Part shown: positions 4,087-31,941 of the stretch, in pieces
How positions within the stretch are numbered: position 1 is the stretch's first letter
Layout: each line of letters starts with the position of its first letter
Virus record (IMG/VR): IMGVR_UViG_3300000234_000014
Coordinates: 1 to 35,348 of that record
Source: a virus
Strand: one strand, 5' to 3'
Length of the DNA stretch: 35,348 bases
Notes under the pieces: model-generated
Seen by the model: the letters and a program-made list of their open reading frames with translations, nothing else
Database searches by the model: none
What the model was told of the DNA's origin: nothing
Made by a program: the position numbers and the translations under genes

Positions 4087-4159
4087 AGATGTAAATTTAG
4101 TTCCCGAAGGTTGGATTCTTGGGAACAAATTAAAAACAATAGAAATAGATGGGATAAAC

Positions 4160-4270
4160 ATGAAAAAAATCAAGAGCATTAAATCGGTAGGCAATCGTAA
4201 GGTTTATGACGTTACCACGTTGTCACACAATAAAAATTTCATTCTATCGAATGGAGTCGTCGCGCATAAT
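4160..4270 (+). other. Split intein C-fragment (37 residues) of gp44
   Basis: Block F (VYDVTTLSHNKNFIL) and block G (NGVVAHN, then Cys) are both complete. The last Asn is at 4268-4270. It shares the core SIK..GNRKV with the uvsX C-intein in this window. Confidence 0.9.
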
Positions 4271-4882
4271 TGCAATTCTACTCAACCAAGTCTTCGCAAT
4301 TTCATGGAAGAATTTGCGTTGAATTGTCGATTCATTCTAACTGCGAACTATGCAAACAAGATCCTAGATCCAATCAAGTCTCGGTGTTCTGTAATTGAAT
4401 ATAATTTCACCAAGGAAGAAAAGTTTGAGTTAATTAAGCAATTCGATCAACGTGCTAAAGATGTATTAACCGCTGAAGGCATTACATTTGATAAGTCTGT
4501 TCTTGCGGAAGTCGTCATGCGCTACTTCCCAGACTTCAGAAAAATCTTCAATGAATTGCAGCGATTTAGTCATGATGGAACGTTGAATGCGGGCGTCATG
4601 AATTCGTTCTCTGAATCTGCGCTTGTAGAGCTAATTAAGTATCTTAAAGCAAGCGAATTCACGAAGATGCGAAAGTGGATTGTAGACCATATTGATAATG
4701 ATTTTTCTTCGATCGTTCGTTCGCTATATGATGGGATGTACAAATATGTTGAATCTGATAGTATCCCAGAGCTAGTTTTAATTCTAGCGGACTTCGATTA
4801 TAAACGCGCATTTGTTACCGATCCCGAAATTCATTTAGTCGCTATGCTAACGACAATTATGATGCAGGTTAAATTCAAATGA
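4160..4882 (+). CDS. 44: C-intein fused to the gp44 C-terminal extein
   Basis: From the ATG at 4160 the first 37 residues are a C-intein (MKKIKSIKSVGNRKVYDV..., ending NGVVAHN), followed by C+1 and the extein CNSTQPSLRNFMEEF. The extein holds the AAA+ sensor region (RFILTANYANKILDPIKSR), with the SRC arginine motif, and the clamp-loader collar domain; T4-like landmarks such as FPDFRK are present. The frame is open back to 4067, with ATGs at 4067 and 4073. The Met at 4160 is preferred because it gives a normal-length C-intein and matches the start of the uvsX C-intein, though its ribosome site (GATGGGAT) is weak. The stop overlaps gene 62 by ATGA. Confidence 0.9.
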   Translation: MKKIKSIKSVGNRKVYDVTTLSHNKNFILSNGVVAHNCNSTQPSLRNFMEEFALNCRFILTANYANKILDPIKSRCSVIEYNFTKEEKFELIKQFDQRAKDVLTAEGITFDKSVLAEVVMRYFPDFRKIFNELQRFSHDGTLNAGVMNSFSESALVELIKYLKASEFTKMRKWIVDHIDNDFSSIVRSLYDGMYKYVESDSIPELVLILADFDYKRAFVTDPEIHLVAMLTTIMMQVKFK

Positions 4883-8999: not shown

Positions 9000-10094
9000 A
9001 TGAAAGATTTAAAGCATATGACGGATGAGGAACTTTTAGCTTACAGAGTTAAAACGGAAAATGAAATAACATTATTTAACGTAAATCAAATGGCATTTAA
9101 ACTGATTTTGAACAGCGCGTATGGAGCGCTTGGTAACGCTCACTTCAGATATTTTGAGCGAGATATTGCTGAAGGTATTACATTGACAGGGCAGTTCATT
9201 ATTAGAAGCGTTCTAAACTCTATGAATGAATTTATGAACTTAACGCTGAAAACTAAAGGCATTGATTATGTAATTGCGGGCGACACTGACTCTATTATGG
9301 TCAATGTTAGTGGCGTGATTGAAAAAATTGGATTGCAGGACAAGGATAAAATCGTTGACTTTCTTGACATGTTTGCTAAAAAGAAAGTCGAAGTTATGCT
9401 TAAAGAATTGTTCGACGATATTTCAACTTATCTGAATGCGTTTGATAACGTATTGCATATGAAGCGCGAATCCATCGGCGATCGCGCAATCTGGAGAGCA
9501 AAGAAGAATTATGTAATTCGCGTACTCGATAACGAAGGTGTGCGATATACTACGCCGAAAGTTAAAATTGTTGGCATTGAAGTAGTTAGGTCTTCATCCC
9601 CGCGTATTTGCCGCAATGCGTTAAAGGATGCAATTTATATTTTACTTGGCGGCAATGAGCAAGAACTTATCGACTTTGTTACATCATTTAAAGAAAAGTT
9701 TATGACTGAGAAGTACGAAACAATCGCATCACCTCGCGGCGTTAGTGATATTGGTAAATGGGTTGATTCTAAAACTATGTGGAAGTCGGCAACTCCATTC
9801 CATGTTAAAGGTGCAATTCTTTATAATCATTTGCTTGAAGTTAATAATTTGAATCGTTATAGAGTAATTAAAAATAGTGACAAGATTAAACTATTACCAT
9901 TAAAAGAAAGAAACCCGTGGAGGACGACTACTATAGCATTCCACGATGAAATTCATCCTGAACTGGGTATAACGAAATATATTGACGTTAATTCTCAATA
10001 TATTAAAACATTCCTGAATCCGTTGCATTCGTTGACTAATCTTGTAGGATGGAAAACGGAAGCGGTCAATAGTATTGATGATTTTTTCTCTTGA
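9000..10094 (+). CDS. 43: DNA polymerase gp43B: second half of polymerase domain, thumb
   Basis: This 364-residue half continues the fingers (MKDLKHMTDEELLAYRVKTE) and contains motif B (NQMAFKLILNSAYGALGN), motif C (IAGDTDSIMV; D95, D97), the KKNYVIRV segment and the thumb, with GIEVVRSSSPRICRNALKDA. It ends FLNPLHSLTNLVGW..., then SIDDFFS, like the gp43 tail that contacts the clamp. The catalytic Asp residues are therefore split between two polypeptides: motif A in gp43A, motif C here. The start has GAGGGG five bases upstream. Together the halves have 857 residues, near T4 gp43 (898). Confidence 0.94.
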   Translation: MKDLKHMTDEELLAYRVKTENEITLFNVNQMAFKLILNSAYGALGNAHFRYFERDIAEGITLTGQFIIRSVLNSMNEFMNLTLKTKGIDYVIAGDTDSIMVNVSGVIEKIGLQDKDKIVDFLDMFAKKKVEVMLKELFDDISTYLNAFDNVLHMKRESIGDRAIWRAKKNYVIRVLDNEGVRYTTPKVKIVGIEVVRSSSPRICRNALKDAIYILLGGNEQELIDFVTSFKEKFMTEKYETIASPRGVSDIGKWVDSKTMWKSATPFHVKGAILYNHLLEVNNLNRYRVIKNSDKIKLLPLKERNPWRTTTIAFHDEIHPELGITKYIDVNSQYIKTFLNPLHSLTNLVGWKTEAVNSIDDFFS

Positions 10095-10145: not shown

Positions 10146-11054
10146 ATGTCTTTAAAGCAACGTTTACTTAAAAACAGCACAATCAAAGAAACGGACGTTC
10201 TTTGCGATTCCAAAGTTTTTAACACCAAAGATATGATCACTACGAGTGTTCCAGCAATTAATATTGCTCTGTCTTCAAAAGTTGATGGAGGATTAACGCC
10301 GGGACTTCTAATGCTCGCCGGACCATCGAAACACTTTAAGTCGGGCTTCGCACTTTTAATGGCTAAGTCATATCTCGACAAATATCCTGATTCTATTATG
10401 TTGTTTTATGACTCAGAGTTTGGAACGCCTCAGTCATATTTCGACGCTTTTGGAATTGATACTAATCGAGTAGTACATACCCCAGTTACTAACATCGAAC
10501 AGCTAAAACACGATATATCCAAACAGCTCGATGAAATTACAACGGGCGACAAAGTCATTATTATCATTGACTCGATTGGCAACCTAGCATCTAAGAAAGA
10601 AGTTGAGGATGCTATGGACGGAAAATCTGTAGCTGATATGACTCGCGCTAAACAATTGAAATCTACTTTCCGAATTATCACTCCACATTTAACGCTGAAA
10701 GATATTCCGTTGATTGCAATAAATCACACGTATAAAACGATGGAACTCTACTCGAAGGATATTGTGGGAGGTGGATGTGTCGCACCTGATACCGAAGTTT
10801 TAATGTCTGATGGAAATTATAAAATAATCTGTGACATTTTACCCGGAGAACACGTTCAAACTCTTTTAGGCGAAAAGGAGGTCGAATATACTTGGGACTA
10901 TACTACTCTTATTGAAGGTGAGCCCGAATGTTATGAAGTTACTTTTGATGATGGGTTTACAGTAGTATGCTCGTATAAACATCGTTTCTTGAATGATAAA
11001 AATGAGTGGATAGAAGCTAGGGATATTAAAGAAGGTATGATGTTTATTTCTTAA
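10146..11054 (+). CDS. uvsX: UvsX recombinase N-terminal extein fused to N-intein
   Basis: Residues 1-210 are the N-terminal part of T4-type UvsX, the RecA-like strand-exchange protein: an SLKQRLLKNSTIKETD start, Walker A GPSKHFKSGF, MLFYDSEFG, Walker B VIIIIDSIGNLASKKE and DMTRAKQLKSTFRI. The extein stops at KDIVGGG. An intein begins at C211 and continues to the stop at residue 302, with block A (CVAPDTEVLMSDG) and block B (VCSYKHRFL). The rest of UvsX follows a matching C-intein in the next ORF. 210 plus 139 extein residues give a 349-residue recombinase (T4: 391). Recombination would depend on trans-splicing. Confidence 0.94.
   Translation: MSLKQRLLKNSTIKETDVLCDSKVFNTKDMITTSVPAINIALSSKVDGGLTPGLLMLAGPSKHFKSGFALLMAKSYLDKYPDSIMLFYDSEFGTPQSYFDAFGIDTNRVVHTPVTNIEQLKHDISKQLDEITTGDKVIIIIDSIGNLASKKEVEDAMDGKSVADMTRAKQLKSTFRIITPHLTLKDIPLIAINHTYKTMELYSKDIVGGGCVAPDTEVLMSDGNYKIICDILPGEHVQTLLGEKEVEYTWDYTTLIEGEPECYEVTFDDGFTVVCSYKHRFLNDKNEWIEARDIKEGMMFIS
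10776..11051 (+). other. Split intein N-fragment (92 residues) of UvsX
   Basis: It runs from Cys211 to the ORF end and carries blocks A and B; in block B a Ser (SYKH) stands where Thr is usual. The insertion is between VGGG and TGAYYS, in the ATPase core near the DNA-binding loops. Confidence 0.9.
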
Positions 11055-11085
11055 AGCATCCTCCTGTATTGACACTCTACGGAAG

Positions 11086-11196
11086 ATGAAGAAGGATTAT
11101 ATAGAGAGTTTGGGATTTAAATATTATGAAGTTTTTGAGCGACAATTCAAAATCGATCCTGATATAGTTTTGAAATTATTAGTAGAGGGAATAAAA
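11086..11196 (+). pseudogene. Remnant of a homing endonuclease C-terminus inside the uvsX split
   Basis: The frame leading into the C-intein encodes about 37 residues that do not belong to an intein: KKDYIESLGFKYYEVFERQF followed by KIDPDIVLKLL. This matches the usual C-terminal end of Vsr/DUF559-like nucleases (..DeyLeslGyk...E.eF..n...v...il). No catalytic part remains in the 142 bases between the two uvsX halves. The likely history is deletion of an endonuclease gene that once sat between the halves, as one still does before gene 46. Confidence 0.55.
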
Positions 11197-11304
11197 ATGA
11201 AAACGGTAATATCAATTAAAAAAATTGGGAATCGTAAAGTATGCGATTTAACAGTAAAAGATGCTCAACATTATATTTTGAAGAATGGTGTTATCTCGCA
11301 TAAT
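11197..11304 (+). other. Split intein C-fragment (36 residues) of UvsX
   Basis: Block F (VCDLTVKDAQHYIL) and block G (NGVISHN, then Thr) are complete. Threonine at +1 matches the native residue of UvsX (GGGTG in T4), as expected for an intein in a conserved site. Confidence 0.9.
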
Positions 11305-11724
11305 ACTGGCGCATACTACTCATCTGATGCTATTTGGATTATTGGGCGTCAACAGGATAAGGATGCAAGTGGCGAGATTAACGGCTACAATTTCATCATC
11401 AATGTAGAAAAATCTCGACATGTCCGCGAGAAATCTAAAATTCCAATTACTATTTCGCATAAGGGCGGAATCATACAGTGGTCTGGTCTTATGGATATAG
11501 CTCTCGAAACTGGACACGTCGTTAAACCTAGTAATGGGTGGTATCAAAAAGTTAACATCGAAACTGGAGAAGTTATCGATCCTAAGATGAGACTTAAAGA
11601 TACGATGACATCTGAATTTTGGGCTGATATTCTTGGTGCGGAAAGTTTCAAAACTTCGGTTGAAAATATGTACTCAGTATCTAATGGGGCGATTCTTAAT
11701 GTCGAGGAAAGTGTAAATGAATAA
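11197..11724 (+). CDS. uvsX: C-intein fused to UvsX C-terminal extein
   Basis: From the ATG at 11197, behind AGAGGGA, the first 36 residues are a C-intein (MKTVISIKKIGNRKVCDLTV..., ending NGVISHN), followed by T+1 and the extein TGAYYSSDAIWIIGRQQDKD. The extein matches T4 UvsX in YNFIINVEKSRHVREKSK, SGLMDIALETGHVVKPSNGW and the acidic tail NVEESVNE. The same frame is open back to 11086 with an endonuclease-like remnant, but the internal start has the better ribosome site and gives a canonical C-intein. The end overlaps the next gene by eight bases. Confidence 0.91.
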   Translation: MKTVISIKKIGNRKVCDLTVKDAQHYILKNGVISHNTGAYYSSDAIWIIGRQQDKDASGEINGYNFIINVEKSRHVREKSKIPITISHKGGIIQWSGLMDIALETGHVVKPSNGWYQKVNIETGEVIDPKMRLKDTMTSEFWADILGAESFKTSVENMYSVSNGAILNVEESVNE

Positions 11725-20265: not shown

Positions 20266-21492
20266 ATGATTCAATTCGAATATGTAGTGTCTGGTCCATC
20301 TTATATTAGACTGGGGTACCCAGAATCCAGTATGCCAGAATTCACCGATATATTTTTAGATAAATTCACATACTTAAAAAATAAATCCGTAGATTATAAT
20401 CATGAGTTTTCAATTCTTTATAATGCCTATACAGAAAAAAACTTAGGAGATGTTATTTTCAATAATTTTAGATCGGGCTTTAATAACATTTATGCGGATT
20501 CTGGGGGATTGCAGATTATTACTCAGGGAAAGAGTATTTCTAGAGAAATGAAAATGGAAGTGTATAAGAATCAACTCGCGTATTCTGATTTTGGTATGTG
20601 TTTTGACGAGATTCCGCTAAAGATTTTTGGTTCGGGCAAGTCAAAGCGAGGCGATACTAACAATAGATTATTTGATACTAAAAACATTAAAGAGTTCGCT
20701 GTTGCTACAGCGAACAATGTAATAGATCAAATAAATGCTTACGTTAATAATGGTTCGGAAACCAAACCTATATTAATCATGCACGGAAATTGTTATGCGA
20801 CATTTATGGAATGGTATGATTCAGTGATGACAGCGATCCCAGATAACAAAAGAAAATACATATCTGGGATTGCGTTGAGTGGCGCGTCAATTGGTACAGG
20901 TTTATTGGAAGACGTAGAGAGAGCATTCTTCTTTTCTCAAATTAAAAACGATATTCAACATCTACATCTATTGGGGTTAGGGAGTACATCGCGAGCGCAT
21001 CCGTTCTTAGTATTTCAGCAAACTGGACTTTTAGATGGAGTTAAAATTAGCTACGATTCAACAACACATTCAAGCGCGCCTCACATGGGTAGATACTTTA
21101 TAAAAGATAAAGCTCTAAATTTTAGTAGGGAATTTGATTATAAATTTGAAATTGTATACAATGATATTCAGAGTAAATTTGATATGGGGTTGACCATCGA
21201 AGAGTTTCATAAAGCTATGGTCACCCCCGCAAGACAACTCGATAAGATAGGTAATACATTTTCTGCGTTCACTGGGGCGATTGTATCTTCTATAGAAAAT
21301 TTTATGATTGACCTAAATAATCTAAGATTTGATGAGGATCTAAAATATAAAATTGACAAAAATCTTATCGGCTTATATAATGTAAAAACAAAGGAAGATT
21401 TCGATATGTGGATGCGAGAAGTAGGTAGGTTTGTACCTAGCAAGCGCATATCGGCTAGAACTGTAATCGCTTTAGATTCATTTTTTAACTAA
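20266..21492 (+). CDS. dpdA: DpdA-like DNA transglycosylase (7-deazaguanine insertion into DNA)
   Basis: 408 residues. The TGT-like barrel signature YADSGGLQIITQGK (D78 as the likely general base, like DSGGFQ in TGT), GIALSGASIG, HLHLLGLGS and ISYDSTTHSS (D264 as candidate nucleophile) mark it as a tRNA-guanine-transglycosylase paralogue. DpdA proteins exchange guanine in DNA for preQ0. This fits the FolE, QueD, QueE and QueC genes that follow on the same strand. No tRNA-specific C-terminal zinc motif is seen. It has GAGG as ribosome site and its own promoter, and heads a compact unit with the MIPS-like, HAD-like, queC and queE genes. Confidence 0.85.
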   Translation: MIQFEYVVSGPSYIRLGYPESSMPEFTDIFLDKFTYLKNKSVDYNHEFSILYNAYTEKNLGDVIFNNFRSGFNNIYADSGGLQIITQGKSISREMKMEVYKNQLAYSDFGMCFDEIPLKIFGSGKSKRGDTNNRLFDTKNIKEFAVATANNVIDQINAYVNNGSETKPILIMHGNCYATFMEWYDSVMTAIPDNKRKYISGIALSGASIGTGLLEDVERAFFFSQIKNDIQHLHLLGLGSTSRAHPFLVFQQTGLLDGVKISYDSTTHSSAPHMGRYFIKDKALNFSREFDYKFEIVYNDIQSKFDMGLTIEEFHKAMVTPARQLDKIGNTFSAFTGAIVSSIENFMIDLNNLRFDEDLKYKIDKNLIGLYNVKTKEDFDMWMREVGRFVPSKRISARTVIALDSFFN

Positions 21493-21507
21493 TTTCGGAG
21501 AATACGA

Positions 21508-22632
21508 ATGATTAATGTGGCTATTTTTGGAGTAGGTAATTGTGCATCTGCTCTTGTTCAGGGTGTCAATTACTATAAAGAAAACGATGTCTCGGTGCCG
21601 GGTATTATGTTTAGGGATATTGGAGGATATGGAGTATCAGATATTAAATTCGTTGAGGCTTGGGATGTAGATGTACGCAAAGTAGGTAAAAAATTGAAAG
21701 ATGCAATTTTTGCACATCCCAACTGCTGCCGAGTGTTTCATACAAACATTGACAATGTTTGTACTGTTAGAATGGGTCATATAGGCGATGGAATTTCAGA
21801 TCATATGTTAAACTTTCACGACGAAATTAGATTTGAGCCTTCTACAGAAAAAGAACCGTCCGTAGAAGATGTTGCGGAAATTCTGCGCGAGTCTAACGTA
21901 AACGTGGCTCTTAATTATCTTCCTGTGGGGTCGCAGGAATCAACTGAATTTTACATGAATGCGTGTTTGCTTGCTAAGGTTCCTGTGGTCAACTGCATTC
22001 CCGTATTCATCGCGTCTGATCCAGTCTGGGAACAAAAATTTATCGATGCCGGAATACCTATTATCGGCGACGATATGAGATCTCAAGTTGGTGCCAGTAT
22101 TTTATCACAAGTCCTCCAAGAACTCGCGTTTGATAGAGGAACTCGTGTGAAATTTCACCAGCAGTTAAACGTAGGCGGCAATACAGATTTTGCAAACATG
22201 ATGAACCCCGAACGCATAAAGAGTAAGAAAACATCTAAAGAGAATGTTATTCGTTCTCAAAATGATATTAGAAATGTTGAAGTTGAAAAGGATTCATTGT
22301 TTGCTGGACCATCATCATTCATTCCATATCTTAAAGATAAAAAGGTTGCGTATTTTAGAATGGAATTGGAATCTTTTGGAGGCGCACCTATTAACATTGA
22401 TGTGAAGCTTGAAGTACAAGATTCTGAAAATTCTGCCGGCGTCGTTATTGATGCTATTAGATATTTACAAGTTGCCAAGGAGCTCGGAATTACAGGAGCA
22501 TTGCGAGGACCTTCATCTTGGACTCAAAAGACTCCACCGAAACAGATGATGTATCGAGACGCGCTCGCAGAATGTGAAGCACTTGCGAAGCGGGAGATTA
22601 CACAATCTACATATCATCAGGTTAAACAATGA
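21508..22632 (+). CDS. Myo-inositol-1-phosphate synthase homologue
   Basis: 374 residues matching the prokaryotic-type Ino1 family (inositol-3-phosphate synthase). The NAD-binding start is VAIFGVGNCASALVQGVNYY. Typical family blocks follow: NYLPVGSQESTEFYM, PVVNCIPVFIASDP, GIPIIGDDMRSQVGASILSQ, QLNVGGNTDFANM and LESFGGAPINIDVKL. The enzyme turns glucose-6-phosphate into inositol-1-phosphate with NAD. It lies 15 bases after dpdA, with CGGAG, and overlaps the HAD-like gene, so it belongs to the modification operon. Its role in a phage is not known to me; a sugar or cyclitol precursor for DNA or capsid decoration is inference. Confidence 0.9.
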   Translation: MINVAIFGVGNCASALVQGVNYYKENDVSVPGIMFRDIGGYGVSDIKFVEAWDVDVRKVGKKLKDAIFAHPNCCRVFHTNIDNVCTVRMGHIGDGISDHMLNFHDEIRFEPSTEKEPSVEDVAEILRESNVNVALNYLPVGSQESTEFYMNACLLAKVPVVNCIPVFIASDPVWEQKFIDAGIPIIGDDMRSQVGASILSQVLQELAFDRGTRVKFHQQLNVGGNTDFANMMNPERIKSKKTSKENVIRSQNDIRNVEVEKDSLFAGPSSFIPYLKDKKVAYFRMELESFGGAPINIDVKLEVQDSENSAGVVIDAIRYLQVAKELGITGALRGPSSWTQKTPPKQMMYRDALAECEALAKREITQSTYHQVKQ

Positions 22633-23021
22633 TAAAAATAGCATCTTATGACATAGATGGTGTAATATTTCTCGGTTTTGATTTTCCTTGGATAACTCCA
22701 AGGAAAATGGATATTATTATTACGGGTAGATCCTTTGAAGAAGAGCGAGAGACAAATGATATGCTCCTATCAAGGGGAATTCTCAATAAAGTATTTTTTA
22801 ATCCTTTAAAATTTGATTCTAAAACAAGAGAATCTTCTGGCATTCACAAAGCCAAAACCATAGAGGAATTTAATAAATCTCAAAACGAATTCGTTATATC
22901 TGTACATTTTGATGATGACCCGATTCAGATAAGTGTTATAAAAGAGAGATTGACAGAATTAGAAGTTGTGGAAATCCGACATTCTTTAGTCGATAAGGAA
23001 AATGTCAGACATATTAGATAG
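22629..23021 (+). CDS. Small HAD-like phosphatase-family protein
   Basis: 130 residues. Motif I is DIDGVIF (residues 8-14) at the N-terminus, motif II is IITGRSFEEERE, and motif IV is VHFDDDPIQI near the end; a lysine in the HKAKTIEEF region could serve as motif III. It is small, with no clear cap domain, like capless polynucleotide-phosphatase-type HAD proteins. It overlaps the MIPS homologue by ATGA, so it is coupled to it. Dephosphorylation of inositol phosphate or of a nucleotide intermediate would fit, but the substrate is unknown. Motif I lacks the second typical Thr/Val context, so activity needs proof. Confidence 0.7.
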   Translation: MIKIASYDIDGVIFLGFDFPWITPRKMDIIITGRSFEEERETNDMLLSRGILNKVFFNPLKFDSKTRESSGIHKAKTIEEFNKSQNEFVISVHFDDDPIQISVIKERLTELEVVEIRHSLVDKENVRHIR

Positions 23022-23032
23022 AGAGTACAAAG

Positions 23033-23845
23033 ATGAAAATAACAATACTATATTCCGGCGGGCTTGATAGCTTTATAATGTATAAACTCGCCATGAGTAA
23101 TTACCCAGATGCGGACATTAAATGTGTTTATTATGCTCATGGCGCAGAATCTGAAGAATTTGAAATTGCATCTCTACCAGATTTTGTAATTGTTAAGCGC
23201 ATTGACTGGCTCGGTAAGGATATAAGACCTAAGGCTAAAATTGAAGATCCATTTGCTGGAGAGATTTATATTCCCGGTAGAAACATGGTATTTTGTACTC
23301 TTGCTGCTAGTCAATTTCTACCTGACCAAATCTGGTTGGGAGTTTTGAGAGATGAAAACAACAATAAAGCTACAGATAAAAATACAACATTTAAAAATTT
23401 ATCGAAATCTTTAATTTCTTATGTATTATCGCCATTTTTAGATCAATGTGATATAGTTTTTCCTTTTGATGATCTAGGATGGACTAAAGAAGACAGCGTG
23501 CGCTGGGCGCTAACACATAATACAACTGAAGAAGAGTTGAAAAGTACAATTTCATGCTGGAGTCATAATGGTGAACCATGCGGAAGGTGTAAACAATGCT
23601 TCAAAAGAAAACTCGTATTTTCTATCAACGGTATATCCGAAAAGTTTAAGGAAGATCCATTAAATTCTGAATATGGATTTAATTTAGCTAAAAACTTTTT
23701 GACAGCTAAATTTTTGTATAATACAACAAATACAGATGAATTAACCGTCGCCGATTTAATTGAGCGGTCTTTGGATAATAGATTAGCATTTAACTCAAAT
23801 TATTCAGAAAAACTAAAAGACTTTTTTAAAGGTTGCAAAAAATGA
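23033..23845 (+). CDS. queC: 7-cyano-7-deazaguanine (preQ0) synthase QueC
   Basis: QueC turns 7-carboxy-7-deazaguanine into preQ0 using ATP and ammonia. The PP-loop is LYSGGLDSF (S8-S13), followed by PGRNMVFCTLAASQF and the zinc site CWSHNGEPCGRCKQCFKRK (four Cys) that is diagnostic for QueC. At 270 residues it is slightly longer than bacterial QueC (about 230), with a helical C-terminal tail. No amidotransferase fusion is present, so it is not a GAT-QueC making the formamidino form. The stop overlaps the queE start by ATGA. Confidence 0.92.
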   Translation: MKITILYSGGLDSFIMYKLAMSNYPDADIKCVYYAHGAESEEFEIASLPDFVIVKRIDWLGKDIRPKAKIEDPFAGEIYIPGRNMVFCTLAASQFLPDQIWLGVLRDENNNKATDKNTTFKNLSKSLISYVLSPFLDQCDIVFPFDDLGWTKEDSVRWALTHNTTEEELKSTISCWSHNGEPCGRCKQCFKRKLVFSINGISEKFKEDPLNSEYGFNLAKNFLTAKFLYNTTNTDELTVADLIERSLDNRLAFNSNYSEKLKDFFKGCKK

Positions 23846-24726
23846 AAATTAGGACATCTGAAGTTTTTACGTCTTTTCAAGGCGAAGGTGAGTATGCTGG
23901 CACGCCAGCAGTGTGGGTTAGGTTTTTTGGATGCAATTTAGAATGTCAAGGTTTTGGACAGGACTATCCAACAAAACCCGAGACGTATAAAAAAGACGTC
24001 ATTGACGTATCAACAATCAAGCGAATTGAGGATCTGCCCGTTATTCAATATGGATGTGATTCTGGATATTCGTGGTCTAATAAGTTTAAACACTTAGCGA
24101 CTGATTACGATGAAAAAACAATCGTCGCTAAGATGCTGGAAGTTATGAAGTCAAATCTCGGATCAACCAATTTCGTACATCCAGTAACAAATCAGCCTAT
24201 TATGATTTGTTTCACTGGTGGAGAACCGATGCTCTATCAAAAAGCAATTATGGCAATCTTCTATGAATTGTTTTCTTCGCATGGCATTGTTCCTCCTATC
24301 ATTATGATTGAAACAAACACGACTGTATCGCTAACTGACGATTTTTCTGACTTCATTGAAAGTAATGGGGATAGCGTTGAGTTTGTATTCTCATGCTCGC
24401 CGAAATTATTCACTGTGTCTGGAGAGCAAGGCGCAATAAACACAGGAACAGTTCAATCCTATATCAATCAAGTGAAGCGCACCAGCTTGAAACTTGTTTG
24501 TAATGGAACCAATGCGTGTTGGAATGAAATTGAATTATTTCTACAAACAATTACATATCAAACAATAGATAGACTCGTTAACGTGTGGATTATGCCAGTC
24601 GGCGCAACTAAGGAGCAACAAGAGCTCCCATCAATTGCGAATATTGCAGATGAAGCAATGCGCCGAGGTTATAAAGTTGCAACAAGAAATCACGTTTATG
24701 TTTATGGAAATTGTGCTGGAAAATAG
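23842..24726 (+). CDS. queE: 7-carboxy-7-deazaguanine synthase QueE, phage-type radical SAM
   Basis: The protein opens KIRTSEVFTSFQGEGEYAGT, the QueE hallmark, then VWVRFFGCNLEC. Downstream are CFTGGEPMLYQ (SAM-binding GGEP) and a C-terminal WIMPVGATKEQQ. QueE makes CDG from 6-carboxytetrahydropterin. The iron-sulphur cysteines are spaced C-x3-C-x36-C (third in QYGCDSGYSW) instead of CxxxCxxC; I recall similar sequences in other T4-like phages annotated as QueE-like. The ATG at 23842 is chosen over TTG at 23833 because it overlaps the queC stop and has AAAGG upstream. 294 residues, longer than most bacterial QueE. Confidence 0.87.
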   Translation: MKIRTSEVFTSFQGEGEYAGTPAVWVRFFGCNLECQGFGQDYPTKPETYKKDVIDVSTIKRIEDLPVIQYGCDSGYSWSNKFKHLATDYDEKTIVAKMLEVMKSNLGSTNFVHPVTNQPIMICFTGGEPMLYQKAIMAIFYELFSSHGIVPPIIMIETNTTVSLTDDFSDFIESNGDSVEFVFSCSPKLFTVSGEQGAINTGTVQSYINQVKRTSLKLVCNGTNACWNEIELFLQTITYQTIDRLVNVWIMPVGATKEQQELPSIANIADEAMRRGYKVATRNHVYVYGNCAGK

Positions 24727-24735
24727 GAGAACAAT

Positions 24736-25176
24736 ATGAATGTCAGTTATGACGAAGTAAATGAGTTCGTCGAATCACTAAGAACGATGGAGTTTTCTGC
24801 CGTAGTTGGAATCTATCGCGGCGGATTACCTTTAGCTGTTACGTTGTCGCATTATTTCGATGTTCCGCTTGGAATTATTAAATTTCAGCGGCTTGATGGA
24901 AATGATAAGGTTCCAACATGGTTACATAAGCCAGATAATATCGAAAATTGTCTAGTTATTGACGACATTGTAGATAGCGGGATTACTCTTGAGCACATCT
25001 GCGATTTTATGGAGTATCCTTTTGTATTTGGATCATTAGTATCAAATCATTCACATAAGCATATCATGAAAGCATTCGGGTATCCACGATCGGAATTGCG
25101 CGGTGTAGTCTCCGGAAAATATAATCCTGATAAAAGTGATTGGGTGTACTTTCCTTGGGAATTAAAAAGAAGTTGA
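24736..25176 (+). CDS. Type I phosphoribosyltransferase
   Basis: 146 residues with the PRPP-binding loop VIDDIVDSGIT (74-84), the pyrophosphate loop IYRGGLPLA (26-34) and a C-terminal WVYFPWE, a pattern seen in xanthine/hypoxanthine-type enzymes. It would join a purine-like base to PRPP. It lies between queE and queD, in the modification cluster, with AGGAG upstream. Salvage of guanine, or phosphoribosylation of a 7-deazapurine base, are both possible; the sequence alone does not decide. No homologue of this kind is part of the standard preQ0 pathway. Confidence 0.8.
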   Translation: MNVSYDEVNEFVESLRTMEFSAVVGIYRGGLPLAVTLSHYFDVPLGIIKFQRLDGNDKVPTWLHKPDNIENCLVIDDIVDSGITLEHICDFMEYPFVFGSLVSNHSHKHIMKAFGYPRSELRGVVSGKYNPDKSDWVYFPWELKRS

Positions 25177-25201
25177 CATATTTTCACATTTAATGTAGCA
25201 T
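25173..25201 (+). promoter_or_regulatory. Promoter for queD-folE
   Basis: TTGACA (25173-25178), 17-base spacer, TAGCAT (25196-25201, four of six). It starts at the stop of the phosphoribosyltransferase gene and lies 31 bases before queD. Confidence 0.55.
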
Positions 25202-25232
25202 TAAAAAGTTAAACACACAGAGGAATAAACAA

Positions 25233-25805
25233 ATGAATTTTAGCGTCATCAAAACATTCGCAGAAATGCCTTGCGCTCATACACAAGATGCGGACATGCT
25301 TCCTGATGGCTCACCTGGTCCTTGTGCATCTTTACATGGATATGCCCGCACAGTGACAATGACAGTGACTGGTCAACTTTGCGAATATGGTTGGGTTATT
25401 CCTTTTGGTGCGTTTAAGGACATTCGTAAATTCTTGGAATACTACTTTGATCACACATCACTCTTTTCTGCAAGCGATCATCGTCAAGAAGCAATTCAAC
25501 AAGCAACACTTTCCGGCATCACAGGCACATCCCGCATTTTACCTTATGGCGTTTCAATGGAGATGTCTGGCTTGTTTGTTTGGGAACAAGTAAACCCATA
25601 TATTCTACAGCAAACTGATGGTCGCGCGTGGCTGGAAAAAATCGAGATGCGCGAGCACTCAAAAAACGCGGGTAGCATTCAGTTTACCGAAAGCGAGTGT
25701 CGTCGCCAGTACGCGCGAACAGTTAATACTGGAACTTCAATTATGACAATGCAACCCGTTTGGGATGAAGTTGCACCATTGCGCGCAGTAAATATTCATA
25801 TCTAA
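25233..25805 (+). CDS. queD: 6-carboxytetrahydropterin synthase QueD, divergent zinc site
   Basis: QueD makes 6-carboxytetrahydropterin from dihydroneopterin triphosphate. Family features: FAEMPCAH with a first zinc His, GPCASLHGY with the catalytic Cys, FDHTSLF with the Asp-His pair, and IEMREHSKNAG near the end. Two departures are visible. The zinc motif HGH reads HGY, and the usual DF after the glycine loop reads PF (GWVIPFGAFKD). At 190 residues it is longer than bacterial QueD (about 120). Position next to folE supports the role. Such divergence may be normal for the phage subgroup or may mean altered chemistry. Confidence 0.8.
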   Translation: MNFSVIKTFAEMPCAHTQDADMLPDGSPGPCASLHGYARTVTMTVTGQLCEYGWVIPFGAFKDIRKFLEYYFDHTSLFSASDHRQEAIQQATLSGITGTSRILPYGVSMEMSGLFVWEQVNPYILQQTDGRAWLEKIEMREHSKNAGSIQFTESECRRQYARTVNTGTSIMTMQPVWDEVAPLRAVNIHI

Positions 25806-25819
25806 GGAGGAATTTATTA

Positions 25820-26488
25820 ATGGATAAAACTAAAACTAACCCGCACTTAGGACTTGAAGTGCATAAACATCTTCTTTCAAAAGGCGTTGAAACTCCCGGC
25901 GTCGGAAAATTCCAAGTTCCAAGTAAAAGTGAAGTAATGGATATTGTTCGAGGGTCGACATTTGACTCAATGACGGCGATGGGACTTGATATGGAAGATG
26001 ATTCGTTATGCGAGACACCTAACCGCGTCGCCAAGATGTATTGCAATGAAATTTTATATGGATTGAACACGGATAATTTTCCTAAATGTACAGTCATCGA
26101 AAATAAGATGGGGTATAACGAAATGCTTATGGAGCGTAACGTTAAAGTGATGTCGTTTTGTGAACATCACTTACTTCCTATTCTCGGGCAAGCTCATGTT
26201 GCATACATTCCCGGTAAAAATGTTATTGGTCTGTCGAAAATTCAACGTGTCGTTGATTTCTTTTCACGACGCCCGCAAGTTCAGGAGCGTCTAACAGAAC
26301 AAGTATTTCATGCACTTCAATATGTTCTCGGAACTGAGGATGTCGCTGTTGTAATTGCAGCTGAACACCTATGCGTTAAAATGCGAGGCGTTGAGGATGT
26401 ATGTTCTGATACCGTTTCTGCTAAATTAGGCGGTTCCTTTCTTAAACCAGAAGTGCGAGCTGAGTTCTATGCAATGATCAAAATCTAA
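25820..26488 (+). CDS. folE: GTP cyclohydrolase I, FolE
   Basis: FolE converts GTP to dihydroneopterin triphosphate, the first step toward preQ0. Zinc ligands are present: CEHHLLP (Cys, His) and EHLCVKMRG (Cys). Typical blocks DMEDDSLCETPNRVAKMY, VAYIPGKNVIGLSKI, RVVDFFSRRPQVQERLTEQV and the C-terminal DTVSAKLGG are intact. 222 residues equals the E. coli length (222). A strong ribosome site (AAGGAGG) is found 15 bases before the start. With queD, queE, queC and dpdA it makes the phage independent of host levels of the precursor. Confidence 0.96.
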   Translation: MDKTKTNPHLGLEVHKHLLSKGVETPGVGKFQVPSKSEVMDIVRGSTFDSMTAMGLDMEDDSLCETPNRVAKMYCNEILYGLNTDNFPKCTVIENKMGYNEMLMERNVKVMSFCEHHLLPILGQAHVAYIPGKNVIGLSKIQRVVDFFSRRPQVQERLTEQVFHALQYVLGTEDVAVVIAAEHLCVKMRGVEDVCSDTVSAKLGGSFLKPEVRAEFYAMIKI

Positions 26489-26497
26489 GGAGCGTAT

Positions 26498-27898
26498 ATG
26501 TCTGAATTTTCGACAGAATCTATCATCCTGTCAAATTTATGTAAAAATTCAGAGTATGCTTCAAAGGTTCTTGCATATCTAGAACCCGAGTATTTTAAAG
26601 AGTCAATAGATAAAGAAGCATTTAACATCATTAGGAATTATATTGTAGATTACAACACAGTTCCATCTAAACCGATACTTGCGCGCGATTTAGTCGAAAA
26701 AACTAATCTATTGAGCCATAAGAAAACTCGCGATGATATTGTTAATTTCGTCAAGCATATTTTTTCAATAGAAACAAACTCAGATGAATGGTTATTAAAA
26801 GAAACAGAATCATTTTGTAGAGAAAGGGCAATTCATAATGCGATTGTAAAGTCAATTTCAATTTATGACGGAACAGATTCAAGTTCCACCGTTAACGCAA
26901 TTCCCGATATTTTAAAAAATGCAATTGGAATATCATTTGATTCGTCGATTGGGCATGACTATTTTAATAGCACCGATCTTCGATATGATTATTACACAAC
27001 AACTGAAAACAAAATCGAATTTGATATTGGCATTCTGAACAAAGTTACCGAAGGCGGATGCCCGAGAAAAACGCTTAATATTATTCTTGCTCCTATTAAT
27101 TCGGGTAAGACGATGACAATGATTCATCTCGCTTCGGCTTATTTTAAAGCTGGATATAATGTGCTGTATTTCACTATGGAAATGTCCGAAGTTGAAATCA
27201 TGAAGCGCGTTGATGCAAATGTATTAAAAATTCCGTTATCTGAATTACAAAATTTACGGAAAGATGATTTTCTAACTAATGTGGAGAAGTTGCGCGCAAA
27301 AAGCGTCGGGAAACTTAAAGTTAAAGAGTTTCCGACATCAAGCGCTCATACCGGACATCTGCGACACGTCATTGACGAATATAAATTGAAGGAGAACTTC
27401 ATCCCGGATATCATATTCGTCGATTATCTTGGAATTACAGCGTCAGCAAAATATAAACCCGGAAGTCAAAATTCTTATACGATTTTGAAATCGGTTGCGG
27501 AAGAATTAAGAGCGCTTGCACAGGAAACGAATTCGGTGTTATGGACTGCTATGCAGATTCAGCGCGGGGCGATGGAATCTACTGATATTGAGATGAGTGA
27601 AATTTCCGATTCTGTTGGCATTCCAGCGGTTGCAGATTTTATGCTTGCACTCATTCGAACGGAAGAACTCGATTCAATGGGGCAGCTAATGATTAAGCAG
27701 CTTAAAAGTCGATATAGCAACAAGTCAAAATTAATGAGATTTATTGTTGGGGTTGATCTTGAGCAACAACGATTATTCGATGTTGATATCGCAATTTCGG
27801 ACAAATTAGTGACGATGCAGCGAGAACAGTCGCCAGAAAGTCCAAAACCTGCATGGATGAATAAATCGACTTCTAAATCGGGTGGACTAAAGGTATGA
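26498..27898 (+). CDS. 41: Replicative DNA helicase gp41 (DnaB family)
   Basis: The 466-residue protein has a DnaB-like N-terminal helical domain (SIILSNLCKNSEYASKVLAY) and a RecA-like motor: Walker A LAPINSGKTMT, NVLYFTMEMSEVEIMKR, Walker B PDIIFVDYLGI and LWTAMQIQRGAM with sensor residues. It unwinds DNA ahead of gp43 on the lagging strand with the gp61 primase, which is not in this window. T4 gp41 is 475 residues. No intein is present, although this helicase is a known split-intein site in other phages. The start has AAGGAG, and the stop overlaps the deaminase gene by ATGA. Confidence 0.94.
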   Translation: MSEFSTESIILSNLCKNSEYASKVLAYLEPEYFKESIDKEAFNIIRNYIVDYNTVPSKPILARDLVEKTNLLSHKKTRDDIVNFVKHIFSIETNSDEWLLKETESFCRERAIHNAIVKSISIYDGTDSSSTVNAIPDILKNAIGISFDSSIGHDYFNSTDLRYDYYTTTENKIEFDIGILNKVTEGGCPRKTLNIILAPINSGKTMTMIHLASAYFKAGYNVLYFTMEMSEVEIMKRVDANVLKIPLSELQNLRKDDFLTNVEKLRAKSVGKLKVKEFPTSSAHTGHLRHVIDEYKLKENFIPDIIFVDYLGITASAKYKPGSQNSYTILKSVAEELRALAQETNSVLWTAMQIQRGAMESTDIEMSEISDSVGIPAVADFMLALIRTEELDSMGQLMIKQLKSRYSNKSKLMRFIVGVDLEQQRLFDVDIAISDKLVTMQREQSPESPKPAWMNKSTSKSGGLKV

Positions 27899-28317
27899 TT
27901 CCCGATTATAATTCATTTTATATGAATGTAGCCTATAACATCGCCCAGAGATCGCCATGCAATCGAAAGAAAGTTGGCGCAATTATCGTTACATATTCAG
28001 GTGAGATTATATCAAGCGGATTTAACAGTCCATTTGATATTTCACATCCATGTGAATGTCATGAAACCGGAGAAACTTTAGATAATGTAATTCATGCTGA
28101 AGCTAAAGCGATTGCACAGTTATCCCTTTGCGGAATGTCGGATTTACCAACTAATTGTTCGATGTATGTTACATTATCGCCGTGTATATATTGTGCTAAT
28201 TTGATTTTAGCTTCGACCATAATTGATAAAGTTTTTTACCGAGCGTCATTCAGCGATAAACGAGGAATTGAATTACTCGAAAAATATGGTGTGAAATGTA
28301 TAAAACTAAATAACTAA
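27895..28317 (+). CDS. cd: Deoxycytidylate (dCMP) deaminase
   Basis: This zinc deaminase converts dCMP to dUMP, which is then methylated to dTMP. The zinc and proton-shuttle motif is IHAEAKAIAQL (His, Glu), and the second zinc motif is TLSPCIYCANLI (two Cys). The start (FYMNVAYNIAQRSPCNRKKV) is typical of the family. It has 140 residues, shorter than T4 gpcd (193), mainly in the insert between motifs. With dut and nrdA/nrdB it makes a phage-owned supply of deoxynucleotides. It overlaps the end of gene 41. Confidence 0.93.
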   Translation: MIPDYNSFYMNVAYNIAQRSPCNRKKVGAIIVTYSGEIISSGFNSPFDISHPCECHETGETLDNVIHAEAKAIAQLSLCGMSDLPTNCSMYVTLSPCIYCANLILASTIIDKVFYRASFSDKRGIELLEKYGVKCIKLNN

Positions 28318-28338
28318 AAATTAATGAAGAGAATATAT

Positions 28339-29436
28339 ATGATCACATTTAAAGAATTCCTCATTCGTGAAGGTGGTAATTTTGCTGTAGGGGATATTGA
28401 AGCTGATAGAATAGATTTAAACAAAATAAGTCGAAAAGAAATTGTACCCGTTTTAAAACAATCATTAACGCAAATATCAATAGCGTTTGAGAAGTTTAGC
28501 GGGTTTCCTTTATGGAGTAATGAACTACTGAAAAGTAATGAATATCTTTCAGGTTCTGCGTTTCATTTCTTTGATACATCATCAAGAGACGACGATACAT
28601 TTAAATCAGTCAAGCCTTCCGTCGGAGATATTGACACTCAAGTCGATGGAACTCTAGAGCCTAAGTTAAAGAATTTCTTAGATTCGCTCAGTACAACTAA
28701 ATTTGGAGATCTTACTTTCGTAGGATTTAAAAAATCAGCCGGACAATTCATTACTTTATGGACTTCGACTAAGTTTAAAATTAATATACAAATTGATTTA
28801 GAACTTGTAGATTATCATAATGGAAAACCTACTCCGTGGTCACAATTCTCGCATTCTTCGGAATGGAGTGATATGGAAGAAGGAATTAAGGGCGTTGCTC
28901 ACAAGTATATGCTCAGAGCATTAGATGCTAAGAATCTCAAAGATGTAATTGTACTTTCCGGAAAGAAACGAGTACCGAAAGTTATTAAAGCTACCGAACT
29001 CGCGTTTTCCGTTCAAAATGGTTTACGAATTAAGTTAGCTCCAGTGTTAGATGATTCTGGAAACCATGTTAATGAAAATGGATTATTAGTCTACAATGAA
29101 ATTCCTTCAAGCGAATCGAATTACATCAAAGATATTCGTGTGATGTTTGAATTATTTTTCGGAAAGATTCCTACTGCTAATGAAGTTAAACAATTTTCTT
29201 CATTTGTCGGTCTTGTGGATTTATGTAAAAAATACAATACTCAATCAGATAACCATAAAATTCTTTCAGGTTTCGTGAATACATTATGGGGCAAAGGTGC
29301 TCAATCTCTTTATAGAGATGATAAACTAAAAGATTTCAAAGAAAAGAAAATAATGTTTGAATATATTGCAACCAAATTTAATTCATCGATTGATGTATAT
29401 CAAACGGATATCGATGTTTATTATAAAGGCGGTTAA
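28339..29436 (+). CDS. Nucleotidyltransferase-like protein with capsid-targeting-like N-terminus
   Basis: 365 residues from the ATG at 28339, which has AAGAGA upstream; the ATG at 28324 would add MKRIY and has no ribosome site. The start MITFKEFLIREGG resembles the T4 internal-protein targeting peptide MKTYQEFIAE, with IRE as a possible gp21-type cleavage point. The catalytic-looking part has SGSAFHFF, then VKPSVGDIDTQVDG (D97, D99) and NIQIDLELV as a third acidic strand, the pattern of the Pol beta-type nucleotidyltransferase fold. The substrate is unknown. It heads four tightly packed genes. Confidence 0.65.
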   Translation: MITFKEFLIREGGNFAVGDIEADRIDLNKISRKEIVPVLKQSLTQISIAFEKFSGFPLWSNELLKSNEYLSGSAFHFFDTSSRDDDTFKSVKPSVGDIDTQVDGTLEPKLKNFLDSLSTTKFGDLTFVGFKKSAGQFITLWTSTKFKINIQIDLELVDYHNGKPTPWSQFSHSSEWSDMEEGIKGVAHKYMLRALDAKNLKDVIVLSGKKRVPKVIKATELAFSVQNGLRIKLAPVLDDSGNHVNENGLLVYNEIPSSESNYIKDIRVMFELFFGKIPTANEVKQFSSFVGLVDLCKKYNTQSDNHKILSGFVNTLWGKGAQSLYRDDKLKDFKEKKIMFEYIATKFNSSIDVYQTDIDVYYKGG

Positions 29437-29438
29437 TT

Positions 29439-30365
29439 ATGAGCGAAAAAATAACAGGACAACAATTAGCTCAGGTATTAAGCGAAAATGGATTTATTTG
29501 TGATAGAGTGACTCGAACGAGCATACAAGTAAAAACATCTAAATCGAGATTAGACGAGGTTGATACTCTACTAGGAGTATTAAAACATTTAGGCGCAAAA
29601 TATGATTCGAGTGCAAGTGGTTCTAGTATAGGGGCTATAATCGTCGATAATGTTAAAATTTTAATTAAATCGAATTCAACGACTAACGTTTTAGCTGCCG
29701 AAGAATTAGCTATCAGGCAATTGAATGTATATATAATGGAAGCGATGGTAGAAAATGGCGGCTCAATTGCAATAAATTGTAATGGAAAGATATATCACAA
29801 CATCGTAAAATGCGAATCGACGAAAGGTACGCCTAAATCGGATTTTCATTTAGTGAATAATAAAGGAGAATCGGTAATCTGGATTTCCCATAAAAAAGGC
29901 AAATCCTCAAAAGATTTCCAACAATGGGGAGGAATTACCGAAAAAGAAATTGCGACAAAATTCAAACATATTTTTGATAAAATAACGAAAATTATAAAGG
30001 CTGATATATCTGCGCAGAAAAAAGATGTTGATATTATGCCTAACGGAGAATCATATTTCTTTTCAAACATACATAAAGACTTGAAGATGATGTCGGTGTA
30101 TGGAGTGAAATATGGCGCCGGATATTGCGAACAAAATGTACAAGTTTTATTACAAGGAAATATAAGTCTTAAAAAAAGTGGAAATCATTATGAACTACAT
30201 GCAGATGGACATGTACATTATAATGGCGATGAAATGAGAGGAGAATTTGAACCCGGAATTGCTGTGATTTATAAAGGCGATCGTTCACAGTTAGATCTAC
30301 GGGGCGCAAGAGCTACAGTCAGTCCAGCGGGCGGGCGTAAATATAAAAAGGTATTTAAGTTATGA
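29439..30365 (+). CDS. Unknown phage protein, possible PD-(D/E)xK-like domain
   Basis: 308 residues, two bases after the nucleotidyltransferase-like gene, with AAAGGCGG as ribosome site, and overlapping the next gene by ATGA. I do not recognise the family. The segment GTPKSDFHLVNNKGESVIWI followed by SHKKG (D135, K152) has the layout of a PD-(D/E)xK nuclease core, with Ser-His in place of the usual acidic residue before Lys. The C-terminal region is beta-rich (LQGNISLKKSGNHYELHADG) and ends with a basic tail (GGRKYKKVFKL). Nuclease function is inference from this one segment. Confidence 0.6.
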   Translation: MSEKITGQQLAQVLSENGFICDRVTRTSIQVKTSKSRLDEVDTLLGVLKHLGAKYDSSASGSSIGAIIVDNVKILIKSNSTTNVLAAEELAIRQLNVYIMEAMVENGGSIAINCNGKIYHNIVKCESTKGTPKSDFHLVNNKGESVIWISHKKGKSSKDFQQWGGITEKEIATKFKHIFDKITKIIKADISAQKKDVDIMPNGESYFFSNIHKDLKMMSVYGVKYGAGYCEQNVQVLLQGNISLKKSGNHYELHADGHVHYNGDEMRGEFEPGIAVIYKGDRSQLDLRGARATVSPAGGRKYKKVFKL

Positions 30366-31279
30366 TTAGTTTTAAAGAATGGTTAGATACGGTTTCTGTT
30401 ATAATTCTTGAAGATGACGTTTCATCATCTAAGCGCGTAGGAATTGAGCACTTTCAAAAGATGAAGCCCGAAGAATTTTTGAATTGGTTAAAAACTGTTA
30501 AAAACGATTTAGGGGGAATAATCAAGGACGTTAAAACTGTTGGTAAAATCGACGGGCTTGGTGCAAGATTCGGAAAAAACAAACTAGGGGATATTTTCTT
30601 CGAAGGAAGTAGAACGGGTCCAATATTCGATTCAGGAAGTTTTTCTCTTTACGCAACTAATAAAGGATCATCGCCAGAAGTTATTGAACGGTCTAAACAT
30701 TATGATGATATGCTTGAAATTATAAAGCAATCTAAAGCTGTTAAATCATTGCCAGCTAATGTTAAAGTGGTATGCGAGATATTCTACAACCCAATGGCTC
30801 AAGACTTAAAAGATGGAATCGTATTTGTAACTGTTAAATATGATAAGAGTAAACTAGGATCGTTAATGACTATTCTTCCTTACGAAGTTATAGATTCGAC
30901 AACGGGTGAGGCGTTAAAAAATAGCGACGAAATCGTAGAAGCATTAATCAAACAAAGCACAGATGAAATTAAAATAATTAATCCGCGATTGAAAATGAAT
31001 TCTATTAATATTGAAGGGCATTTAGATATATTATCTTCATTGCAATCAGATGCTATGGATATTATTAAATCCCGTAAACATGCTGATAGAGAATCAAAAG
31101 CGAAAATATTAGCTATAATTGACGCCGCTAAAAGTCAATTAGCTGATTATATTTTAAATTCTAATGCCATTGAAGGGAAATATAATCTCGGAGATGAAAT
31201 TGAAGGTATTGTGCTTCACTTACCTCACGGAATATATAAAATAACCACAGATAAATTCAAAGAGAGTAAGAAGAAATGA
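30362..31279 (+). CDS. Ligase-like covalent nucleotidyltransferase
   Basis: 305 residues. Motif I of the DNA/RNA ligase superfamily is visible as TVGKIDGLGARFG (K62 as the AMP-lysine). VVCEIFYNP matches motif III, DEIEGIVLHLPHGIYKIT matches motif IV (EGIVL), and the nearby YKITTDKFK may be motif V. There is no obvious OB-fold. The N-terminus MISFKEWLDTVSVIILE resembles the capsid-targeting-like start two genes upstream, with ILE as a possible cleavage point. It is coupled by ATGA to both neighbours. An RNA- or DNA-repair role is likely for the superfamily; the substrate is unknown. Confidence 0.68.
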   Translation: MISFKEWLDTVSVIILEDDVSSSKRVGIEHFQKMKPEEFLNWLKTVKNDLGGIIKDVKTVGKIDGLGARFGKNKLGDIFFEGSRTGPIFDSGSFSLYATNKGSSPEVIERSKHYDDMLEIIKQSKAVKSLPANVKVVCEIFYNPMAQDLKDGIVFVTVKYDKSKLGSLMTILPYEVIDSTTGEALKNSDEIVEALIKQSTDEIKIINPRLKMNSINIEGHLDILSSLQSDAMDIIKSRKHADRESKAKILAIIDAAKSQLADYILNSNAIEGKYNLGDEIEGIVLHLPHGIYKITTDKFKESKKK

Positions 31280-31941
31280 TTATATTCGAAGCATTTGTAT
31301 TTGATGAATCTAAGTTACCAGAGAGACAAGATAAGTCAGCTGAATTATTTCTTGGTAGAATGCAGCCCGTTCACATCGGACATAAGAAAATTATTGATAG
31401 CATGAAAAATCCATTCATCGCTATTGTTAAAGGCTCAAAATCAAGCGAAGATAAATCGAAGAATCCGCTAGATTTTAATGAACAGAAACGTTTGTTGAAG
31501 AAAATTTCAAACGCGCAAATTATCGAAGTTAGTGTAGGTTATATTCCAGAGATTATCAAAGATATTCGATTGAAATGGTTTGAAGTGGATGTAGTGTATG
31601 CGGGCGCAGATAGAATTGAAGGTTATAAAAAGCAAATTGACGCTATAAATAAAAAACTAGAAGACAATAAGCAAATCAAAGTTACTTTCAAAGAAACCGA
31701 GCGCGTTACAAGCGCAACAACAGTTCGAACTGCGATTAGATCTGGCGACGCGGCAACATTTAAAAAAGTTATGCCTAAAGAATTACATAACGAGTTTGAT
31801 CATCTCAGAAAATTACTTGCAGAAGAAGTTACCGGCACAAGTAACGTCGCAGCAACCGATTTACCTATAACTTCTAAAAAGTTGAAAAATAAAACTGAAT
31901 ATGTTGACGAAATTTTAAAGCGTAAACCACAAGAGAAGTAA
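31276..31941 (+). CDS. NMNAT-like cytidylyltransferase-fold protein
   Basis: 221 residues. FLGRMQPVHIGHKKII is the GxxQPxHxGH adenylyl-binding motif of NMN adenylyltransferases, and TSATTVRTAIRSGD is the second nucleotide motif (SxTxxR). Such enzymes make NAD from NMN and ATP. T4-like phages such as KVP40 carry NAD-salvage genes of this sort, as I recall. The start MIIFEAFVFDES is a weaker version of the targeting-like peptide on the neighbours. The C-terminal 50 residues (KLLAEEVTGTSNVAATDLPI and onward) are a polar tail. Overlaps the ligase-like gene by ATGA. NAD or another dinucleotide as product remains open. Confidence 0.75.
   Translation: MIIFEAFVFDESKLPERQDKSAELFLGRMQPVHIGHKKIIDSMKNPFIAIVKGSKSSEDKSKNPLDFNEQKRLLKKISNAQIIEVSVGYIPEIIKDIRLKWFEVDVVYAGADRIEGYKKQIDAINKKLEDNKQIKVTFKETERVTSATTVRTAIRSGDAATFKKVMPKELHNEFDHLRKLLAEEVTGTSNVAATDLPITSKKLKNKTEYVDEILKRKPQEK

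Follow-up and report, generated by a model that had tools for sequence, protein, structure and literature searches.

A block of four coupled genes in a T4-like phage

We analyzed a 35,348-base record of a T4-like phage (IMG/VR record IMGVR_UViG_3300000234_000014; the whole stretch is called the window here) and focused on a block of four plus-strand genes, P1 to P4, of which P1 and P3 encode enzymes with putative capsid-targeting peptides at their N-termini. P1 (28339-29436) encodes a 365-residue protein resembling nucleotidyltransferases of the pol-beta superfamily (phrog_19290, E-value 3e-36), P2 (29439-30365) a member of phrog_13937, P3 (30362-31279) an ATP-dependent, RNA-ligase-like ligase, and P4 (31276-31941) a HIGH/NMNAT-like nucleotidylyltransferase (CTP_transf_like, E-value 8e-7). 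As a first-pass annotation of this DNA had pointed out, the four genes are coupled: the stop codon of P1 ends at 29436 and the ATG of P2 begins at 29439, P2 and P3 overlap at 30362-30365, and P3 and P4 overlap at 31276-31279. The block lies between a dCMP deaminase gene (27895-28317) and a gp26-type baseplate gene, which starts at 31943, directly after the stop codon of P4 at 31941. A comparable block occupies the same location in Xanthomonas phage X1 and Stenotrophomonas phage Moby. The start codon of P1 is likely the ATG at 28339 and not the start of the longer open reading frame (ORF) at 28324, because a Shine-Dalgarno-like GAAGAGA (28326-28332, plus strand) is located 6 nt upstream of the former and none precedes the latter.

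In phage T4, residues 4 and 7 of a short N-terminal tag direct internal proteins to the prohead, and gp21, the prohead protease, cleaves after L/I-x-E (PMC9026906). The T4 record gives MKTYQEFIAE, followed by A, as the N-terminus of IPII and IPIII, and MKTFKEFTSTTTPVSTITE, likewise followed by A, as that of IPI, the closest known tag. P1 starts with MITFKEFLIRE (28339-28371, plus strand) followed by GGN and matches the short form; its cut is proposed after E11, before G12-G13-N14. P3 starts with MISFKEWLDTVSVIILE (30362-30412, plus strand) followed by DDV and matches the long form of IPI, with a proposed cut after E17. Positions 4 and 7 are aromatic in both (F4/F7 in P1, F4/W7 in P3) and, as initially noted, their IRE (before G) and ILE (before D) fit the gp21 rule. 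The third N-terminus proposed at the outset to be such a tag, MIIFEAFVFDE followed by S in P4 (31276-31308, plus strand), is present and has the aromatic pair (F4/F7). However, FDE takes the place of (L/I)xE, and the nearest P4 homologs (L002, L004, L064, and L080) have no tag; P4 was therefore rejected as a protein tagged like P1 and P3, and the claim of three tagged enzymes holds for these two only, where it is strengthened by their relatives.

We scanned all start codons of the window with an open frame of 19 amino acids for a T4-derived motif, M-x(0-2)-[TS][FY]x[ED][FWY], which recovers ipI, ipII, and ipIII in T4. It matched 3 of 1493 start codons: those of P1 and P3, and one inside nrdA. 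In T4 itself, another ORF of 54 amino acids, starting with MKTFKEFIKEDMVAGDSGG, also fits the capsid-targeting motif (L212-L215). Structure models set the peptides apart from the rest of each protein. In the AlphaFold model of P1 (predicted local distance difference test score, pLDDT, 91), residues 1-12 are the only ones with a pLDDT below 50, and in that of P3 the pLDDT drops below 50 at residues 1-18 and in one internal loop. These models and the alignments described below suggest that the two peptides are detachable and lie outside the folded protein.

The predicted cut site is conserved among P1 relatives

An IMG/VR scan with the P1 alignment returned 155 relatives, 80 of them retained, and the cut site was evaluated in 66 distinct, mutually related P1 domains, including those of named phages. 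The residue preceding the invariant GGN is E in 61 of the 66, Met in three, and Cys in two. At the third position before the cut, each of the 63 tagged (non-Met) relatives has L, I, or V, and 61 of these have the full (L/I/V)xE. The remainder of the prepeptide is variable, with a mean pairwise identity of 11% and a length of 6-25 amino acids. When clustered at 60% identity, 22 of 26 clusters consist of E sequences throughout and three of Met sequences throughout. The P1 homologs of phages X1 and Moby and of Vibrio phage pv27 are untagged and begin exactly with M-GGN. Their start Met thus sits at the protease cut position, and tag cleavage and Met removal would therefore yield an identical GGN N-terminus. 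A tagged P1 is also found in Campylobacter group II phages (MKLSELMFILE followed by GGN); in Campylobacter phage IBB_35, the P1 homolog is AEF56792.1 on contig 1.

Short motifs do arise by chance, and the N-terminal likeness, first seen in a comparison of three sequences, might reflect coincidence or a common amphipathic start, with the E before GGN having a structural role in the P1 fold. Indeed, a first, looser tag expression matched 16 internal Met codons across six sequence sets, and it was superseded by the T4-derived motif and by family-wise conservation. Several observations make this explanation very improbable: the start Met takes the place of the E in untagged homologs, the segment is disordered in the AlphaFold2 models, and the prepeptide varies in sequence and length while two positions of the cut site are fixed. 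Moreover, the unrelated P3 and P2 families carry the same tag, and in fused relatives the linkers hold the site at one junction of two, as described in the following sections.

Unrelated proteins carry the same form of tag

Among 21 tagged stand-alone relatives of P3, 19 have (L/I/V)xE as the end of the tag, immediately ahead of the P3 core. P2, which is without a tag in the window phage, is tagged in relatives L012, L156, L205, L160, and L164. In L156, P2 begins with MLSFKTYITE followed by MSNLAGKELYKYDWR, while the P2 of L163 begins directly at MSNLAGKELYKYDWR; the tag is thus joined directly to the initial Met with which the untagged form (MSNLAGKEL) begins. In L012, near-identical starts, MKSFKQFL or MKTFKQFL, are found on P1, P2, and P3. 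The tag therefore appears to be modular, being common to the unrelated P1, P2, and P3 families. Unlike P4 of the window, more distant P4-type HIGH nucleotidylyltransferases of other phages (L165, L196, L201, and L203) are fully tagged, with starts such as MVNSFSQFLVE, MKNFFQFLSE, and MKTFLQFISE.

Further tagged proteins were found in relatives G001, G003, and G007 and in phage X1. They include PARP-like proteins of 1.3 thousand amino acids (G001 and G003), an AAA protein, and a polynucleotide-kinase/zeta-like protein. Both PARP-like giants (L030 and L041) have a second, internal tag-like sequence, SFKEFLRE followed by A, about 100 amino acids before the C-terminus. In G007 (L035, 1377-3744), two adjoining tagged genes match one half each of phrog_12810, and one of them is polynucleotide-kinase/zeta-toxin-like. 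In X1 (L020, 15470-17001), proteins of 77 and 139 amino acids encoded beside the untagged P1-P4 block have tag-like starts ending in LAE and LYE, each followed by D.

Fused relatives hold a candidate protease site between P1 and P3

A single chain of 685-2031 amino acids with one N-terminal prepeptide unites P1 and P3 in 34 distinct relatives, and in 32 of these a HIGH-type, P4-like domain follows P3. Several effector domains in one chain thus occur only in these fused relatives (e.g. L014-L017 and L019); in the window the enzymes are encoded by separate genes. The linker between P1 and P3 holds (L/I/V)xE within 25 residues of the P3 core, mostly followed by A, in 34 of 34 proteins where 8.5 were expected from each protein's own frequency, while the linker between P3 and P4 holds it in none of 32 where 9.7 were expected; these expectations are not strict probabilities, because the sequences in each count are related. 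That the two linkers of the same proteins differ argues against an effect of composition.

In these relatives, a polyprotein of P1, P3, and P4 would carry one N-terminal tag and one internal gp21 site, located between P1 and P3 only. We consider it somewhat more probable than a coin toss that in T4-like phages the nucleotidyltransferase, ligase, and NMNAT are synthesized as one polyprotein, brought into the prohead by a single tag, cut within the capsid by the prohead protease, and injected as a repair kit that acts before phage gene expression; in the window, this set would be split into separate genes, with a tag on each of P1 and P3.

The prohead protease is encoded by relatives

The initial proposal had called for a search for gp21. 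Neither gp21 nor gp23 was found in the 35-kb window, which is a fragment of a larger genome, but relatives with contigs that extend over the head module encode gp21 (PF03420), namely G001, G003, G007, X1, G012, G013, G015, G018, and G023, among them three contigs that also encode a fusion (G013, G015, and G018). All examined contigs in which gp23 matched in full also have gp21. Furthermore, the gp23 propeptides of G001, G003, G007, and X1 carry (L/I/V)xE sites, the last of which (LAE, LAE, LHE, and LNE) lies shortly before the mature domain.

The tags might instead be signals for core binding and processing on proteins that serve head assembly or protect DNA ends within the virion. The T4 core proteins gp67, gp68, and gp22 are gp21 substrates too (PMC9026906), and in X1 a tagged ORF of 81 amino acids stands immediately upstream of gp21. 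However, P1 and P3 have the fold and the conserved catalytic residues of enzymes and look like cargo rather than scaffold; they occur untagged in other phages, and the T4 proteins with such a tag are injected (PMC9026906, PMC9391042). A role confined to the head is thus unlikely.

The enzymes resemble polymerase beta, RNA ligases, and NMNATs

For P1 and P3 the enzyme class was assigned from folds, because Pfam and PDB sequence profiles were uninformative: Pfam gave no match for either, CTP_transf_like being found only for P4, and PDB profiles gave only chance matches. The top Foldseek matches of P1 are DNA polymerase beta (probability 1.00) with a TM-score of only 0.27, and those of P3 are T4 Rnl2 and other RNA ligases (probability 1.00, E-value 1e-4), with DNA ligases also matching, at TM-scores of about 0.35-0.4; with scores this low, the substrate class of both is tentative. 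The residues expected of such enzymes are conserved: G72-S73, D97, D99, and D153 of P1 (a G-S, a D-x-D, and a third carboxylate) are invariant in all aligned relatives, as are K62, D64, and E139 in the P3 alignment, in which K62-I-D-G forms motif I and EGIVL, near the C-terminus, motif IV. P4, a HIGH nucleotidylyltransferase, is weakly similar to NMNATs. At the level of predicted folds, the nucleotidyltransferase, ligase, and NMNAT-like assignments made at first reading thus hold. No sequence homology to P1 or P3 was detectable in the T4 nucleotidyltransferase nrdC.11, Rnl1, or Rnl2, and a search of 84,980 species genomes for a cellular P1 homolog returned only one contig of an Anaerolineae metagenome-assembled genome, which is probably a phage contig.

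A ligase together with an end-modifying nucleotidyltransferase and a kinase-like companion suggests RNA-end repair. The main rival to this function is a supply of nicotinamide adenine dinucleotide (NAD): the proteins would likewise be packaged and injected, but for NAD/ADP-ribose metabolism, with P4 rebuilding NAD against NADase defences and P1 and P3 nucleotidylating macromolecules. The weak similarity of P4 to NMNATs, the tagged PARP-like proteins of relatives, and the description of phage NAD salvage and head-packaged ADP-ribosyltransferases (PMC9503650) all fit this possibility. However, P4 of the window is the least convincingly tagged member and the block holds no NadV partner. Moreover, a ligase and a pol-beta nucleotidyltransferase play no part in NAD synthesis, and these two enzymes together with the tagged kinase-like protein of G007 point to nucleic-acid ends. 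We therefore regard a role in NAD metabolism as possible but rather doubtful.

P1 and P3 as predicted injected head proteins

Taken together, we estimate with a probability of roughly 0.8 that P1 and P3 are packaged into the head as internal proteins with a T4-like removable tag, are cut by gp21, and leave the head with the DNA, and that this cargo most likely repairs RNA ends. The sequence comparisons and structure models strongly support a removable capsid-targeting prepeptide with a gp21 site on both proteins; from the same comparisons we infer their packaging, cleavage, injection, and substrate. The aromatic residues 4 and 7 of the 11-residue (P1) and 17-residue (P3) tags would bind the prohead core, whereupon gp21 would cut after (L/I/V)xE, leaving mature P1 with a free Gly-Gly-Asn N-terminus. 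Freed inside the head, the enzymes would exit together with the DNA. The cargo would comprise the pol-beta-type nucleotidyltransferase, the RNA-ligase-like ligase, and the NMNAT-like enzyme, to which one relative (G007) would add a tagged polynucleotide-kinase-like protein, and it would most likely mend RNA ends, such as those left in tRNAs by a host anticodon nuclease, before phage gene expression. That it forms a repair or counter-defence kit, as originally suggested, is likewise something we infer.

Several observations weigh against this interpretation. In the window phage, P2 is untagged and P4 has FDE at the expected cut site, and the gp21 and gp23 genes are missing from the window. In the three phages with an untagged P1, packaging must be unnecessary for its role. 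The related P1 sequences L008 and L010 have C in place of E before GGN, and the P3 tags of L077 and L079 end in FFE or FLE. Although Campylobacter group II phages encode a tagged P1, the 11 protein bands described for CP220 (PMC2853527) do not obviously include the P1 homolog. The low TM-scores and the relatedness of the sequences behind each count also belong here.

The targeting mechanism, such tags, and injected enzymes (Alt) are already known, and injected polyvalent proteins have already been proposed (PMC5512222, PMC9503650); what looks new is the enzymatic cargo and the cleavable polyprotein, and our literature search found no description of this cargo or of polyproteins with prohead-protease sites. 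P1 and P3 share with T4 IPI, IPII, and IPIII (Mullaney and Black; PMC9026906) the short M-x-[TS]-[FY]-x-E-[FW] peptide, the aromatic residues 4 and 7, and the gp21 site L/I-x-E, as well as the occurrence of short (IPII, IPIII) and long (IPI) tag forms. In contrast, the T4 cargo is small, IPI being a GmrSD inhibitor, while that of the window consists of conserved enzymes of 300-365 amino acids; no sequence similarity of P1 or P3 to the T4 internal proteins was detectable. T4 Alt, an injected ADP-ribosyltransferase, is also a head-packaged enzyme cut by gp21, and the PARP-like giants of G001 and G003 are tagged likewise; Alt, however, is a different enzyme and its N-terminus lacks the [TS][FY]xEF form. 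The T4 tRNA-repair pair Pnkp and Rnl1 resembles the combination of a ligase with a polynucleotide-kinase-like protein (G007), likely serving RNA-end repair, but the T4 enzymes are untagged and made after infection, whereas here arrival with the DNA is proposed and a pol-beta nucleotidyltransferase is added. Polyvalent proteins, in the part of their description considered here (PMC5512222), are also large multidomain proteins predicted to be packaged and injected, with release of domains by proteolysis proposed. There the peptidase is embedded, while here the sites match a separate prohead protease, and RNA ligases are not reported with them in that part.

Little is known of enzymes injected by T4-like phages beyond T4 Alt and a handful of internal proteins. 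A simple sequence test for capsid cargo in many uncultured phages is provided by (L/I/V)xE in a set position ahead of a mature N-terminus that is conserved. From this, enzymes of nucleic-acid repair are predicted to arrive ready-made, some of them after release from a polyprotein by the protease of the capsid.

Other features of the window

Judged from the translations, the gene order of the window runs from replication genes (gp46, gp45, gp44, gp43, uvsX, nrdA/B, and gp41 types) to tail genes. The late-promoter sequence TAAATA occurs within 60 nt upstream of 19 of 56 P1 genes and of 125 of 673 other ORFs, a modest excess that is not a main argument here. Intein-like segments were recognized, from translations only, in the gp46-type (778-2754), gp44-type (3457-4882), and uvsX-type (10146-11724) genes, and the gene for the gp43-type DNA polymerase is divided between two ORFs (7455-8936 and 9000-10094). 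Finally, the region 20266-26488 contains Tgt-like, QueC/QueE-like, and FolE-like genes, several of them common to X1 and Moby, which likely constitute a pathway for 7-deazaguanine DNA modification or queuosine.

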